DNA from: Methylobacterium ajmalii
GTDB lineage: Bacteria; Pseudomonadota; Alphaproteobacteria; Rhizobiales; Beijerinckiaceae
DNA: 64,000 nucleotides
Direction: 5' to 3'
NCBI RefSeq assembly: GCF_016613415.1
Contig: NZ_JACWCT010000027.1
Location: 1-64,000 of the forward strand
The translations under genes and the position numbers were made by a program. The notes beneath the pieces are model-generated. The model saw only the letters and a program-made list of their open reading frames with translations, searched no databases and had not been told where the DNA came from. Every line of letters starts with the position of its first letter. Position 1 is the first letter of the stretch. Positions 14,913 to 19,904 of the stretch are shown here, in pieces.

Positions 14913-15073
14913 GGCCGAATCCCTCGGGCGGTGGAATTATAATTCCAAACGCTTGCGCCACCCGGGGGCTGGGGTCAAGCGTGGACATTTTCCGGGCAGC
15001 CCGGAGCATGCGTTTGAAGGCACGCTGCACGACAGGAGCGCGAAAATCGCGGTGATGGTTGTCCCACCTGCGG

Positions 15074-15195
15074 CCTCATCCTGAGGTGCTGCCGCTTGCG
15101 GCAGCCTCGAAGGAGGGTTCCAGGTCTCGCCGAGACTTCTGGAGCCCTCCTTCAAGGTCAGTCGATCTTCAATCGACTGACACCTCAGGATGAGG
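15074..15195. repeat. Cloverleaf-like palindromic repeat element
   Basis: An outer perfect 15-bp inverted repeat (CCTCATCCTGAGGTG at 15074-15088, its complement at 15181-15195) encloses three further hairpins. The first is GCTGCCGC/GCGGCAGC just inside the left arm. The second is a long stem with ends GAAGGAGGG (from 15109) and CCCTCCTTC. The third is GTCAGTCGAT/ATCGACTGAC just inside the right arm. There is no open frame. The fold is cloverleaf-like, but no tRNA features exist. It fills most of the 384-base gap upstream of the acyl-CoA dehydrogenase gene and shares its core with the hairpin at 20057-20099. Confidence 0.75.
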
Positions 15196-15250
15196 TCGGG
15201 AGTGGGAAGCGCCGCACGTGAAATGTCATGCCGTGTGCTCTGCGGCCTGT

Positions 15251-15306
15251 AAGATCATTTGCCCAAGATCATTTGCCCAAGATCATTTGCCCAAGATCAT
15301 TTGCCC
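15251..15306. repeat. 14-bp tandem repeat, four copies, overlapping a gene end
   Basis: AAGATCATTTGCCC occurs four times head to tail without mismatch (15251, 15265, 15279, 15293). The last copy contains the final codons and the stop of the minus-strand exported protein gene (GGG CAA A TGA). Each upstream copy is therefore a duplicate of that gene's 3' end. Slipped-strand expansion is the likely origin. Confidence 0.9.
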
Positions 15307-15803
15307 CTCGGCGGCCCGGTCGGAACCAGGAGGGCGATCCGGTAGGTCCCGCCCTCGCGGCCGACCAGGAACACGCTGGTGGGGGCGGCGTCGCCCTCGA
15401 CCGGCGGCTCGTCGAACACCACCCGCAGCCGCTCGGTCACGGGCATGTTGGCCTTGAGCGTGCCGCGGGCGGTCGCCTCGGCGAGGCCGTCCTCCGGCAT
15501 CGGCTCCAGGGCCGCGGCCTTGATCGGCCGGCCGAAGCCGGAGCGGATCTGGTAGAGCGTCAGGCGCTTGCGCTGCGCCCTTGTGCCGGTCCAGTTCACC
15601 AGCCGCTCGAAGGCGGCGATGTCGTGGTCGGTCATGGCCTTCGTCACGTAGGCGACGAGGGCGTCGGGTCGGGCGGGGAGGGGAGCGCCGCTCCCGGCCG
15701 TCGCCTCCGGTGCGGGCTGCGCCGCGGCCGGCCCCGCGAAGAGGCCGGCCACGAGCGCCAGGGCGGCGAGACGCAGCCCCGGCTTCGCCGAGCGGCGGGT
15801 CAC
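15297..15803 (-). CDS. Small exported protein of unknown function, coupled to PQQ dehydrogenase
   Basis: A 168-residue protein with a Sec-type signal peptide (about 1-28: LRLAALALVAGLFAGPAAAQ). A mature helical segment, DALVAYVTKAMTDHDIAAFERLVNW, leads into a strand-rich part ending VFLVGREGGTYRIALLVPTGPP. I do not recognise the family; the shape is compatible with a small alpha+beta periplasmic protein. Its GTG start overlaps the dehydrogenase stop by 4 bases, so it is translationally coupled and probably acts with it. It is not homologous to XoxJ or MxaJ by length (those are near 280 residues). The 3' end lies in the tandem repeat. Confidence 0.75.
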   Translation of the reverse strand: MTRRSAKPGLRLAALALVAGLFAGPAAAQPAPEATAGSGAPLPARPDALVAYVTKAMTDHDIAAFERLVNWTGTRAQRKRLTLYQIRSGFGRPIKAAALEPMPEDGLAEATARGTLKANMPVTERLRVVFDEPPVEGDAAPTSVFLVGREGGTYRIALLVPTGPPRGK

Positions 15804-17602
15804 TTGGCCGTCGCCTCCTCGCCCATCACCCGGAAGACCCAGATCACCCCGCCCTGCGGCAGGACGCTGACCCGGCGCTCCTCGGGGATGAGCGCGTTGA
15901 TGCCGGTCAGCATCCGCTCGGCGTCGACGCCCCAGCCGGCCTGGACCGCGACGTACTGGATCCCGTCGACCATGTAGCTCGACGGCACGCCGGTGACTCC
16001 GGAATTGAGCCGCGTCTCCCACAGCACCTTGCCGGTGGTGCCGTCGAGCGCCCGGAACTTCCGGTCGCTGGTGCCGCCGGCGAAGATCAGCCCGCTGCCG
16101 GTGGTGAGCAGCGGCCCCCAGTTCGCCGAATCCTGGAAGTCGTGCTGCCAGGCCTTCTTGCCGGTCTTCGGATCCCAGGCCTGGATCGCCCCGATGGCGA
16201 AGGGCTTCGACTTGTCGACCCCGTCGCGCAGGCGCAGCGAGTTCAGCACCTCGTCGATCGGGATGCCGATATAAAGTTCGCCCGGCTTGCGTGTGCCGGC
16301 CTGGGCGCCGGCCAGCTCCGAGCACAGGTTGTCGTTGGACGGGATGTAGAACAGCCCGGTCTTCGGGTTGTAGGCCTCCGGTGGCCAGTCCTTCCCGCCC
16401 CACAGGCCGGGGCAGAAGGCGGCGCGCCGGTTGATGCCCGGGATCTTGGACTGGTCGTAGGTCGGCCGGCCGGTCTTCGGATCGAGCGAGGCGAAGACGT
16501 CCTGGTGCACGAACGGCTTGCCGTCGACGAAGCTCAACGGCCCGTCCTTGCTGCGCTCGAGCGTCCAGAGGTAGCCGTTGCGGCCGGCATGGATCGCGGC
16601 GGGGATCTTCCTGCCGTCGCGCTCGATGTCGATCAGCACCGGCGCCGAGACCTCGTCCCAGTCCCAGGCGTCGTTCCAGTGATACTGGTGGTGGCCCTTG
16701 ATCTTGCCGCTGTCGAGGTCGAGCGCGACGACCGACGAGGTGTAGAGGTTGTCGCCCGGCCGCGCGTCCGGCGTCCAGGGCCCGCCGTTGCCGGTGCCGA
16801 AATAGGCGAGGTTGGCGGCCGGGTCGTAGCTGCCCTGGATCCAGACCGAGCCGCCGCCGGTCTTCCAGGAATCGCCCTTCCAGGTGTCGGCCGCCGGGTC
16901 GCCGGGGCCGGCGACCGTGTAGGTCTTCCAGGCCTCGTGGCCGGTCTCGGCGTCGAGCGCCGTGATGAAGCCGCGCACGCCGTACTCGCCGCCGGAGACG
17001 CCGACGACGACCTTGCCCTTGGCCACCAGCGGCGAGAGCGTCATGTAGTAGCCGTCCTGCCAGGGGGCGACGCACTTCTCCCACTTCACCTTGCCGGTGG
17101 TGGCGCCGAGCGCGACCACGCAGGCATCGGTGGTGGTCATGTAGACGCTGTCGCCGTAGAGCCCGACGCCGCGGTTGGTCGGATGGAGCTGGGACAGCTC
17201 CGGCGGCAGCTCCTTCTGGTAGCGCCACAGGATCTCGCCGGTGCGGGCGTTGATCGCCATCACCTGGGCCTGCGGGGTTGTGACGAACATCACCCCGTTG
17301 TTGACGATCGGCGGGGCCTGGTGGCCTTCGCTGACGCCGGTCGACAGGCTCCAGGCCGGGACGAGCTTGGTGACGTTCTTGGCGGTGATCTGGTCGAGCG
17401 GGGAATAGCCCCAGCTCTGGTAGTTGCCTCGGTATTGCAGCCAGTTCTCCGGCTCGGGATTCGCGAGCCGCTGGTCGGTGACCGGCTTGTAGTCGACCTT
17501 GTCGGCCGGGCCGGCCTTGGCCGGCGCACCGGCGAGCGCGAGGGCCACCGCACAGGGCGCGACCGCGGTGAGCCAGTGCCTGGCCCGAACGAGACGTGAC
17601 AT
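15800..17602 (-). CDS. PQQ-dependent alcohol dehydrogenase, lanthanide-type motif
   Basis: A 600-residue periplasmic quinoprotein with a signal peptide (1-30, ends APAKA) and an eight-bladed propeller of tryptophan-docking repeats such as ALDAETGHEAWK and ALDGTTGKVLWE. Metal-site residues of the methanol dehydrogenase group can be placed: Glu206 in GGEYGVRG, Asn272 in GTGNGGPW and catalytic Asp314 in AWDWDE. Asp316, two residues on, is the extra acidic residue typical of lanthanide enzymes (XoxF, ExaF). The vicinal Cys pair normally before the NRG motif is absent (LHPTNRG, 139-145). No CxxCH haem site exists. ATG at 17602 follows AGGAG. It is flanked by a Rieske gene and an exported-protein gene; substrate unknown. 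Confidence 0.88.
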   Translation of the reverse strand: MSRLVRARHWLTAVAPCAVALALAGAPAKAGPADKVDYKPVTDQRLANPEPENWLQYRGNYQSWGYSPLDQITAKNVTKLVPAWSLSTGVSEGHQAPPIVNNGVMFVTTPQAQVMAINARTGEILWRYQKELPPELSQLHPTNRGVGLYGDSVYMTTTDACVVALGATTGKVKWEKCVAPWQDGYYMTLSPLVAKGKVVVGVSGGEYGVRGFITALDAETGHEAWKTYTVAGPGDPAADTWKGDSWKTGGGSVWIQGSYDPAANLAYFGTGNGGPWTPDARPGDNLYTSSVVALDLDSGKIKGHHQYHWNDAWDWDEVSAPVLIDIERDGRKIPAAIHAGRNGYLWTLERSKDGPLSFVDGKPFVHQDVFASLDPKTGRPTYDQSKIPGINRRAAFCPGLWGGKDWPPEAYNPKTGLFYIPSNDNLCSELAGAQAGTRKPGELYIGIPIDEVLNSLRLRDGVDKSKPFAIGAIQAWDPKTGKKAWQHDFQDSANWGPLLTTGSGLIFAGGTSDRKFRALDGTTGKVLWETRLNSGVTGVPSSYMVDGIQYVAVQAGWGVDAERMLTGINALIPEERRVSVLPQGGVIWVFRVMGEEATAK

Positions 17603-17823
17603 GCTGCTCTCCTGACAGACGGGGACGGGCAGGGGCCGGCCCGGCATTTCCTCGATCTCGGTGCTTTTGCCCGATTGATTGTCCGGACCCGCGTCGTTGC
17701 TGCGCGAGCCCCGGTCTCTCCTCGGCGAGGACCGACAGGGTTGCCGTCCTCGTCTAGGGTCGGACAGCGCGGCGGCGCTGCCGTTCTCATCGCGAGGCGG
17801 CGCGGGCGCCGCCTCGAACCCGC

Positions 17824-18393
17824 TCAGGCGGCGCCCGGCCCCGGCTTGCCGATGAAGCCGCCGGCCACCATGAGCGCGCCGCCCTCGCCCCTGGCCAGCG
17901 GCAGGACCGGCAGGCGCTTGCGCGCCGGCCCCTTGGCGACCCGTCCGCCCTCGGCGGGCAGGAACTCGGAATGGTGGCAGAAGCAGCTCAGGCGCTTCGT
18001 CTCGTGGTTCCAGCCCGAGATGGTGCAGCCCTGGTGCGTGCAGACGCCAGAGAGCGCCACGACGCCCTCGACCGCGTGGGCGCGCTGGTCCTCGGCGACC
18101 TGATCGGGGGCGACCCGCACCAGGATGATCTTGGAAAAGCGCGAGCCCTCGCGCCGGACGCCCTGCGGATCGACCGCCACCGCCTCGATGAGTTCGCCGC
18201 CGACCGGCAGGCCGTCGAGCGTCACGGCCTGCCCCGCCTTCGCCCCGTCGGCCAGCACCAGCCGGTCGCCCTTCTGCGGCAGCGTGTCCTCCGGCCCCGC
18301 GAAGGCGGCGCCCCCGGCCGCGCAGCAGGCAACGGCTCCCATCACGACGCTGCGCCGGTCGAGACCGGGCGCGCGCTGCCCCTCACGAGCCAT
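17824..18393 (-). CDS. Rieske [2Fe-2S] protein with Tat-type leader
   Basis: A 189-residue protein with a leader containing RR (LDRRSVVMGAVACCAAGG, about 11-28), the pattern of a Tat signal or anchor as in other exported Rieske proteins. Cluster ligands are in CTHQGC (118-123) and CFCHHSEF (137-144); Pro of the usual CPCH is Phe and Gly is His. It would carry electrons on the periplasmic side. No cytochrome b or c1 gene is nearby, so it is not the bc1 subunit. It lies about 220 bases upstream of the quinoprotein gene on the same strand, after GGGAGG. A role as electron acceptor of that dehydrogenase is my inference. Confidence 0.88.
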   Translation of the reverse strand: MAREGQRAPGLDRRSVVMGAVACCAAGGAAFAGPEDTLPQKGDRLVLADGAKAGQAVTLDGLPVGGELIEAVAVDPQGVRREGSRFSKIILVRVAPDQVAEDQRAHAVEGVVALSGVCTHQGCTISGWNHETKRLSCFCHHSEFLPAEGGRVAKGPARKRLPVLPLARGEGGALMVAGGFIGKPGPGAA

Positions 18394-18437
18394 CTTTCCT
18401 CCCGTTACACGTTCTTATGTTTTTCTAATTTCACCTA

Positions 18438-18465
18438 TGAGTAGCCGACAGGGTGCGGGCGTCAA
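18438..18465 (-). promoter_or_regulatory. Candidate promoter of the Rieske-PQQ dehydrogenase unit
   Basis: On the minus strand TTGACG (18465-18460) is followed after 16 bases by TACTCA (18443-18438), about 45 bases before the Rieske start, in a locally A+T-rich stretch. The -35 is good and the -10 is weak. No operator was recognised. Confidence 0.35.
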
Positions 18466-18561
18466 CCCGCTTCGTGTCGGGATGTCGTCGTTTCGACGTG
18501 GCGCGACGCACGCTCTACTTGGTGCGACGCGAGAGCGACTTGTGCAATGCAATAGAGCGCG

Positions 18562-19143
18562 TCAGCGGGCCAGGGCCGCCCGGAGCGTCGCGGCCAGGGC
18601 GTCCGGGTCGATCCCGTTCGGCAGCCGCGCCATCACGTCGCCCGCCGGGCCGACGAGGAAGAGGTCGCCCGGATGGTCCACCACCCCGTCGTGACGCCGG
18701 ATCGGGGCCGCGACCGCGGCCGCGAGGGCGTCGATCACCGCGACAGGGCCGGTCACCGCCACGATGGCGGGATGGAAGGTGTCGAGGTAGCGGGCGAGCG
18801 CCGCGGGACCGTCGCGCTCGGGATCGGCCGCGACCAGCACCGGCACCAACCGGGCCAGCAGGGCGGGGGGCAACTCGTCGAGGGCCTGGGTCACGGTCAT
18901 CAGCGCGGTCGGGCACAGGTCCGGGCAGCGCGTGTAGCCGAAATAGACCAGGCGCAGGCGCCCGGCGAAGCGGGCCTCGTCGAGCACGGCGCCGGTCTGG
19001 TCGACGAGACCGTGCCCGGCCGGCCAGGCCAGGGAGCCGGAGGCGGGACGCGCGGCGGGCGCGCCGACGGCCCCGCCCGCAAGGAGCAGCGCCAGCGAGA
19101 GCACCCGGGCCACCGGCCGCACCCTTGCCGAGACGGAAAACAT
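18562..19143 (-). CDS. SCO1/SenC-family copper/thiol protein
   Basis: A 193-residue thioredoxin-fold protein with a hydrophobic leader (about 10-28). The SCO motif CPDLCP has Cys73 and Cys77, and the distant copper-ligand His157 lies in DHPGDLFLVG. Family members deliver copper to the CuA site of cytochrome oxidase or keep its cysteines reduced, on the outer face of the inner membrane. I chose the Met at 19143; one eight codons upstream is possible. It is encoded upstream of the Rieske and quinoprotein genes on the same strand, separated by 168 bases, suggesting a respiratory theme for the locus. Confidence 0.88.
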   Translation of the reverse strand: MFSVSARVRPVARVLSLALLLAGGAVGAPAARPASGSLAWPAGHGLVDQTGAVLDEARFAGRLRLVYFGYTRCPDLCPTALMTVTQALDELPPALLARLVPVLVAADPERDGPAALARYLDTFHPAIVAVTGPVAVIDALAAAVAAPIRRHDGVVDHPGDLFLVGPAGDVMARLPNGIDPDALAATLRAALAR

Positions 19144-19424
19144 GGCTTCGACCCTGCACCCCGCCATGACTTAAAGCGTCTCCGCGGGCCGGCGCCAGCG
19201 ACCGGCAGACGATGTCGCGGGGTTATTCCCGCACCTCGCAGGGTCGTGATGGCGCGATGTGAGCCGGGAGACGACACGCGATGCCACGCTGATCGCGAAA
19301 GGACTTCCTTAACCGCTCCATGCCGCCCCGGCGGCATTCGGGCGGATTCGCACGATCGTCGCAGGTCGCCGTTAAGGCTGCCTGGCCCAATGTTGCTGGA
19401 GCGGAAACAATCGGCGGCGAGGCC

Positions 19425-19904
19425 ATGGCGATCATCAAGCAGCTCATCACCACCTCCGGGCCGCTCCTGGCCTATCTCGGTGCGATGCCGCTCGCGCGGA
19501 TGATCCCGTTCCGATCGCGCTCCGCCCCGCCGCTCCTCGACGGCCCGGTGCAGCGCACCGTCGACTTCCCGGCGGTGCAGCCGCCGGCCGAGCCCTATGC
19601 CTGGCCGCGCTCGCACATCCTGTCGGGCGATCCGGTCCAGACCGCGACCTATATCTACACCAGCCCCGACGGCCTGTTCGCCGCCGGCATCTGGACCTGC
19701 GCGATCGGCAAGTTCCGCATCGATTTCGGCCGGGCCGAGTTCATCCAGATCCTGGAGGGCGAGGTGATCGTCACCGACGCCGAGGGCACCGCCCGCACCT
19801 ACCGGGCCGGCGACGCCTTCGTCACGCCGAAGGGCTTCTCCGGAACCTGGGACGTGATCGCACCGATCAAGAAGCACTTCACCTGGTACGGCTCTGGGGA
19901 GTGA
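19425..19904 (+). CDS. Cupin-domain protein (DUF861-like)
   Basis: A 159-residue protein with a single cupin barrel in its C-terminal half. The string YIYTSPDGLFAAGIWTC ... RAEFIQILEGEVIVTD ... YRAGDAFVTPKGFSGTW ... KKHFTWYG is typical of the DUF861/EutQ-like cupin_3 group. The usual metal-binding His residues are largely missing, so catalysis is doubtful. ATG at 19425 was chosen over an upstream frame opening at 19320. It is convergent with the SDR gene, with a strong hairpin between them. Function unknown. Confidence 0.78.
   Translation: MAIIKQLITTSGPLLAYLGAMPLARMIPFRSRSAPPLLDGPVQRTVDFPAVQPPAEPYAWPRSHILSGDPVQTATYIYTSPDGLFAAGIWTCAIGKFRIDFGRAEFIQILEGEVIVTDAEGTARTYRAGDAFVTPKGFSGTWDVIAPIKKHFTWYGSGE

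Follow-up and report, generated by a model that had tools for sequence, protein, structure and literature searches.

A Rieske protein gene paired with PQQ alcohol dehydrogenases of probable type 6a in Methylobacterium and other bacteria, and the possible role of the Rieske protein as electron acceptor

Genes at the locus

The DNA analysed here, a stretch of 64,000 nucleotides of Methylobacterium ajmalii (GCF_016613415.1, contig NZ_JACWCT010000027.1, positions 1-64,000; hereafter the window), carries a gene for a pyrroloquinoline quinone (PQQ) alcohol dehydrogenase next to a gene for a Rieske protein with a twin-arginine translocation (Tat) signal, and the pairing of these two genes, which recurs across several classes of bacteria, is the subject of this work. 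Four genes share the minus strand and are read from position 19143 in the order SCO, Rieske, PQQ dehydrogenase and exported protein, as an earlier note on this DNA had placed them:

18562..19143, minus strand: SCO1/SenC protein (PF02630), by its distribution a genus-level neighbour outside the conserved unit
17824..18393, minus strand: Tat-exported AioB-like Rieske [2Fe-2S] protein (PF00355), 189 amino acids (aa), the proposed electron acceptor or electron-transfer subunit
15800..17602, minus strand: PQQ alcohol dehydrogenase (TIGR03075) of 600 aa, probably of type 6a and most likely Adh4, with the lanthanide-type Asp
17183..17185, minus strand: codon of His140 in the dehydrogenase, within an H-x-T-N-R-G motif located in a shortened loop without the vicinal Cys-Cys that other PQQ alcohol dehydrogenases have (from alignments)
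15297..15803, minus strand: exported accessory protein, 168 aa, without cysteine, whose start overlaps the dehydrogenase stop

The SCO and Rieske genes are separated by 168 bp and the Rieske and dehydrogenase genes by 221 bp, while the GTG start of the exported-protein gene overlaps the stop codon of the dehydrogenase as GTGA, which makes the translational coupling proposed in the earlier note plausible. A simple consensus scan, weakly informative for Methylobacterium, found no promoter-like or terminator-like site in 15000-19500. The absence of a nearby cytochrome c gene, claimed before, was borne out: a six-frame scan of the whole window contained no CXXCH motif, hence no c-type cytochrome gene, and the adjacent one expected from cytochrome-cL-coupled methanol dehydrogenase (MDH) systems was not found in it. 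Since the genome encodes PqqC, PQQ can probably be made by the bacterium itself.

The dehydrogenase matches TIGR03075, the methanol/ethanol family of PQQ alcohol dehydrogenases, with 554.8 bits (cut-off 480.05), as one of six TIGR03075 genes in this genome. Residues E206, N272, D314 and R341, the active-site Glu and Asn, the catalytic Asp and the PQQ-site Arg, are invariant in 22/22 aligned sequences, and the WDWDEV motif holds the extra Asp of lanthanide-type enzymes. Its best structural match is PedH (Z 49.7, 39% identity).

The Rieske protein (37.7 bits against PF00355, cut-off 20.3) combines an RR signal with the motifs C118-T-H120-Q-G-C123 and C137-F-C139-H140, and its best solved relative is 1nyk, a soluble Rieske protein of Thermus. 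Among 23 aligned sequences, one of them an AioB, the RR pair, Ser142, the two disulfide cysteines and the four ligands of the cluster are invariant, as are all six residues of the CxH..C and CxCH boxes. The position of the bc1 Tyr is occupied by Phe in 21/23 and by Tyr in 2/23. Judging by known bc1 mutants, a Rieske protein that keeps the Ser and loses the Tyr should have a slightly lower potential than bc1, one that fits a position between PQQ and cytochrome c. Assignment as the bc1 Rieske subunit was rejected (29.1 bits against TIGR01416, cut-off 97.4), the locus having no cytochrome b neighbour; another Rieske gene of the genome, on contig C156, directly precedes a gene for cytochrome b (PF00033, 247 bits).

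The 4501 bp around the cluster share 99.0% DNA identity with plasmid pMaq22A_1p of Methylobacterium aquaticum 22A. The genome to which the window belongs holds a second Rieske-dehydrogenase pair, on contig C151, whose dehydrogenase gene is 99.7% identical to another site on that plasmid and has Ala at the metal position (WDWA), where the window enzyme has Asp (WDWD). According to section 10 of PMC5784242, strain 22A has six MDH-like genes, in agreement with the six TIGR03075 genes counted here; the locus tags of adh4 and adh6 are those of the plasmid (1p), the metal position of Adh6 is Ala, lanthanum represses Adh6, and adh4 has no clear expression pattern. By the plasmid match, the Asp/Ala residue and the DNA identity, adh4 most likely corresponds to the window gene and adh6 to the C151 gene. 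The type 6a scheme reportedly goes back to Keltjens in 2014. The label, probable for the window enzyme, is taken over from PMC7356819, where Adh4 and Adh6 are named "PQQ-ADH type 6a", a type that "has not been characterized". The type 6a literature at hand mentions no Rieske neighbour, and the word "rieske" has zero occurrences in the main text of PMC5784242, PMC7356819, PMC8561711 and PMC6028718.

Conservation of the Rieske-dehydrogenase pair

The table that we compiled covers 54 loci of Alphaproteobacteria, Betaproteobacteria, Gammaproteobacteria and one Deinococcus, of which two were dropped for having no dehydrogenase above 300 bits (L040, at a contig end, and L114, an AioB locus). Of the remaining 52, 50 have a Rieske gene on the same strand as the dehydrogenase and no more than 1.5 kb away from it. 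The 51st, L055, has a tandem dehydrogenase copy between the two genes, and the 52nd belongs to genome G230, described below. In L055 (5452-9270) the two tandem clade dehydrogenases, one of the Ala type and one of the Asp type, share a single Rieske gene. The core unit is two genes, the Rieske gene and the dehydrogenase gene: in the neighbourhood comparison that the earlier note had called for, the pair was kept, the SCO gene was not (10/52 loci) and the exported protein proved optional.

Searches at three taxonomic levels gave the same picture. Within the order (297 genomes), the Rieske query returned 22 genes in 20 genomes, 21 of which adjoin a PQQ dehydrogenase, one of these being a fragment at a contig end, while the 22nd (G011) adjoins AioA. 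With the dehydrogenase as query, 21 clade genes were found in 19 genomes at 547 bits or more, the next match having 401 bits, and for 20 of the 21 there is a linked Rieske gene, one such gene being common to two tandem copies; only the G230 gene has none. Across the class (385 genomes), the dehydrogenase occurs in 11 genomes, nine of them absent from the order sample, and a separate search placed Rieske matches of at least 173 bits in the same 11; two weaker Rieske matches (61 and 68 bits) adjoin AioA genes. In the phylum (398 genomes), it occurs in 12, only three of them new, and has a Rieske neighbour in 12/12.

All nine plasmid records retrieved at E 1e-100 contain the pair. In the eight annotated ones (Roseomonas, Azoarcus, four of Paracoccus, Alteromonas and Deinococcus aetherius) the Rieske gene adjoins the PQQ gene, and in the ninth, the unannotated plasmid of 22A, it was detected by profile. 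The pair is complete in 9/10 named Methylobacterium loci, the contig of the tenth ending there. The Rieske gene stands downstream, not upstream, of the dehydrogenase in Paracoccus, Alteromonas and L136. On the Deinococcus aetherius plasmid (L143), from another phylum, it adjoins a PQQ dehydrogenase that has Cys-Cys and branches just outside the clade defined by the H-x-T motif.

Other PQQ dehydrogenases are arranged differently. For 12 of them (four of the same genome, eight of relatives) a Rieske gene was found beside none in the flanking DNA examined, and a CXXCH gene lies in the flanking DNA of six. Distances in the Rieske and dehydrogenase trees correlate (r 0.59 for 45 pairs, r 0.44 for 30 pairs; 0/2000 permutations in each case), five of the 50 pairs having been left out: the 22A copy, the PQQ fragment L054, a duplicate of P. 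yeei, the masked L134 and the near-duplicate L129. We conclude that the pairing is real, widespread and specific.

Two genomes show a change of partner or something resembling it; the trees from which clade supports are quoted were built from a reduced sequence set. Directly upstream of a clade dehydrogenase of G230 (L105), in the position that the Rieske gene has elsewhere, stands a gene for a c-type cytochrome of 157 aa (PF13442, 56 bits, cut-off 27). The 16 kb examined contained no Rieske motif, the genome gave no Rieske-family match at E 1e-10, and the dehydrogenase branches inside the H-x-T clade (support 0.82). A search for further cytochrome-for-Rieske swaps in its family found the dehydrogenase in G230 only (1/15 genomes, E 1e-150). 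In G202 one dehydrogenase groups with the ExaF-like gene of contig C130 (support 1.00) yet carries a Rieske gene, which is closest to the Rieske genes of type-6a-like pairs found in G202 and in a member of its family (support 0.99); this combination looks like a partner exchange.

The clade also differs in its PQQ pocket. In 49 of 51 readable loci, the window included, the vicinal Cys-Cys that other PQQ alcohol dehydrogenases have beside the cofactor is missing and H-x-T-[NS]-R-G stands instead, the two that keep the cysteines being L058 and L143; Cys-Cys is present in 7/7 control sequences from the same genome and from relatives of the clade (C160, C135, C191, C130, L085, L112a and L113), as well as in L087. 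Escherichia coli Gcd, a membrane-bound, ubiquinone-reducing enzyme, resembles the window enzyme here, its QHVTCRG (H262-V-T-C-R-G) aligning with H140-P-T-N-R-G and both being without Cys-Cys, while its other motifs differ. In Gcd that His packs on PQQ, and the electrons are passed to ubiquinone. According to section 25 of PMC8561711, nearly every orthologue retains the cysteines, the exceptions being some minor members of groups 7-9; the paper also refers to a study in which they matter for catalysis in a Methylococcus MDH. Their absence was thus already known; its link to a Rieske-associated clade is new as far as could be seen. Among the controls, the XoxF-like gene of contig C135 (L107:527-2296), close to the contig end, reads HRG in place of the conserved NRG, and is possibly the xoxF2 named as a likely pseudogene in PMC5784242.

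Other neighbours of the pair

The SCO protein (103.4 bits against PF02630, cut-off 22.8) has a CxxxC in its CPDLC motif. It is found in 9/10 named Methylobacterium loci and, over all 52 loci, in the window, eight named Methylobacterium loci and the 22A plasmid copy, hence only in this genus, and it is missing beside the second pair of the same genome on C151. Given this distribution, the single conserved SCO-Rieske-PQQ route of the earlier note falls away, and we rejected SCO as part of the electron route.

The exported protein, conserved downstream of the dehydrogenase in several families, is an optional accessory. It matches no Pfam family at E 0.1, and its AlphaFold 2 (AF2) model (predicted local distance difference test, pLDDT, 80.8) gave no Foldseek match at E 0.001 or lower. 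The best rows of a VIA-align comparison are NTF2/cystatin-like with Z of at most 7.2, below the level for a firm claim, so that the model perhaps has such a fold. A small cytochrome was considered and discarded, the protein containing no cysteine.

A Tat-signalled molybdenum hydroxylase and its 2Fe-2S subunit are encoded near the pair in 16/52 loci, and NAD-type aldehyde dehydrogenases in several more; these neighbours make an aldehyde a likely product of the dehydrogenase. VWA/BatD genes adjoin the Paracoccus yeei pairs. In L046-L050 a group of genes for a PQQ dehydrogenase, a cytochrome c, a zinc alcohol dehydrogenase and GFA stands a few kb away from the pair, and this family is perhaps Bradyrhizobium, by a gene order that matches the one given in PMC12628762.

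In the window, the cluster is followed by genes for an acyl-CoA dehydrogenase (PF00441, 13701-14912) and an alpha/beta hydrolase (PF07859, 12657-13625), whose relatives lie downstream in 10/10 and 9/10, respectively, of the Methylobacterium loci with a long enough contig, the window included. They perhaps hint at the substrate. A 14-base unit (AAGATCATTTGCCC) in about four tandem copies (15251-15306) overlaps the exported-protein gene at its 3' end, and the interval that separates the acyl-CoA dehydrogenase gene from the cluster contains an inverted-repeat-like element (CCTCATCCTGAGGTG ... CACCTCAGGATGAGG, 15060-15210) that looks like a dispersed palindromic repeat.

The Rieske protein as electron acceptor

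From sequence comparison and by analogy, the Rieske protein is probably the dedicated electron acceptor of the dehydrogenase or its electron-transfer subunit, that is, a heme-free outlet. The suggestion of the earlier note that it may accept the electrons is well supported on comparative grounds, by an adjacency that holds in several classes and in a second phylum, the joint presence in the same 11 genomes of the class, the swap in G230 and the likeness to AioB. The analogy with arsenite oxidase and the cytochrome swap make this the most economical reading. As in AioBA, a Tat-type Rieske protein is encoded beside a dehydrogenase, and the three next relatives of the Rieske protein (G011, G660 and G324) adjoin genes that pass the AioA model TIGR02693. 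The partners differ, AioA being a molybdopterin enzyme and the partner here a PQQ beta-propeller. AioB proper was rejected for the window protein, which scores 41.8 bits against TIGR02694 (cut-off 95.65), a model that the G011 protein passes with 153.7, and the window has no AioA-like open reading frame at E 1e-3.

The dehydrogenase shares the eight-bladed PQQ fold and the active-site residues of XoxF and MxaF (XoxF structures, Z about 47), whose cytochrome, XoxG or MxaG, is replaced here by the Rieske gene, and it lacks their vicinal Cys-Cys. Like PedE/PedH and ExaF, calcium-type and lanthanide-type paralogues occur in one genome; PedH, the closest in structure, has the Cys-Cys, and these enzymes use a cytochrome c.

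In the mechanism that we propose, the Rieske protein would fold with its cluster in the cytoplasm and then be exported by Tat, while the type 6a dehydrogenase would be exported separately and bind PQQ and a metal, with a lanthanide-type residue in the window enzyme and a calcium-type one in the paralogue of the same genome. The dehydrogenase would oxidise an alcohol in the periplasm, and the reduced PQQ would pass two electrons, one by one, to the Rieske cluster in place of cytochrome cL. From there they could reach a terminal oxidase through a soluble cytochrome c or a copper protein, as is the case for AioB serving AioA. In many relatives the nearby molybdenum or NAD-type aldehyde dehydrogenase could remove the aldehyde. 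The genes, their motifs, their pairing and shared presence and one swap can be read directly from the sequences; what we infer is that electrons are transferred, which way they run and what accepts them further downstream.

Several observations weigh against this interpretation. Many loci are related and several come from one genus, so that 50/52 does not mean 50 independent cases, and the correlation of tree distances, made with no species-tree control, includes the shared ancestry of the genomes. The flanks behind the count of no Rieske gene beside 12 control dehydrogenases are limited, five having 1.5 kb on each side and C135, 526 bp from a contig end, having its upstream side out of view. 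Our own gene calling missed the Rieske gene of L136, which a motif scan and a profile recovered. The spacing of the profile matches is loose, mostly 42-272 bp with 923 bp in L132; in the Alteromonas record and the similar L136 a CXXCH-containing protein of some 1,100 aa is encoded nearby; and the separation of the PQQ-linked Rieske clade from AioB is weakly supported (0.66). G230 shows that the clade can manage without a Rieske protein. Finally, L058 and L143 have Cys-Cys together with a Rieske neighbour, and the G230 enzyme, without Cys-Cys, adjoins a cytochrome, so the disulfide does not strictly track the partner, the match being imperfect both ways; a strict rule by which a missing disulfide means a Rieske partner is ruled out by L058, L143 and L105.

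Alternatively, a cytochrome c encoded elsewhere could be the real acceptor, and the Rieske protein could have an ancillary part, for example in maturing or protecting the dehydrogenase or in redox sensing. A cytochrome c does adjoin a clade member in G230, other PQQ alcohol dehydrogenases use cytochromes, and the loose gene spacing fits as well. However, a Rieske protein that retains every ligand and the conserved Ser usually carries electrons, the cytochrome of G230 replaces the Rieske protein and does not join it, and no CXXCH gene was called within 5 kb in 49/52 loci (some of them short) or anywhere in the window; we consider this explanation unlikely. Less likely still, the Rieske protein could serve a neighbouring molybdenum aldehyde dehydrogenase in the manner of AioB, with the PQQ enzyme merely in the same pathway. 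The molybdenum hydroxylase and 2Fe-2S genes of 16/52 loci and the AioB proteins among the next relatives would agree with this, but 36/52 loci, the window included, retain the Rieske gene and have no molybdenum genes in the DNA examined (some short), and in 15 of the 16 the molybdenum genes lie on the opposite side of the dehydrogenase from the Rieske gene, L052 being the exception. That it is a Rieske-type ferredoxin of an oxygenase or another cytoplasmic enzyme, placed here by chance or hitch-hiking, is very improbable: Rieske domains are common, as the eight matches of this genome illustrate, but the RR pair is invariant in 23/23, the adjacency is maintained across classes and in a second phylum, and none of the 12 control dehydrogenases has such a neighbour.

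With the Rieske protein as acceptor, a wider view can be proposed, to which we give an even chance. AioB-type Rieske proteins may be portable electron-transfer subunits for periplasmic dehydrogenases, serving AioA and, in a widespread separate lineage, PQQ quinoproteins; the quinoprotein lineage would have lost its cytochrome c and disulfide and have a Gcd-like pocket and a heme-free first carrier, with the exchange at L058 and the back-replacement in G230 marking the modularity.

In the literature searched, preprints being outside its scope, no title or abstract beginning connects Rieske proteins with PQQ alcohol dehydrogenases; an earlier mention is possible. Nor do the portions at hand of PMC11102522, PMC11996626, PMC12628762, PMC5784242, PMC7356819, PMC10715153, PMC8561711, PMC6028718, PMC5023235, PMC9162365, PMC4013037, PMC11697101, PMC8963497, PMC12314914 and PMC10654088 describe the pairing. 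PQQ alcohol dehydrogenases are presented as the only known lanthanide-dependent enzymes in the text available of PMC11996626, and the electron-transfer components beyond XoxF-type enzymes as poorly understood in that of PMC6028718, while the 22A papers, in the text at hand, give the type 6a enzymes no methanol or ethanol role (PMC5784242, PMC7356819). The Rieske protein offers an assay partner for these enzymes, the pair is a natural test of the purpose of the vicinal disulfide, and the pairing may help to wire PQQ enzymes to electrodes without heme. For the bacteria that carry it, the pairing suggests an undescribed first step by which electrons from alcohols may enter respiration, and a conserved Rieske partner, if true, would explain the respiratory link of one uncharacterised branch of the dehydrogenases.

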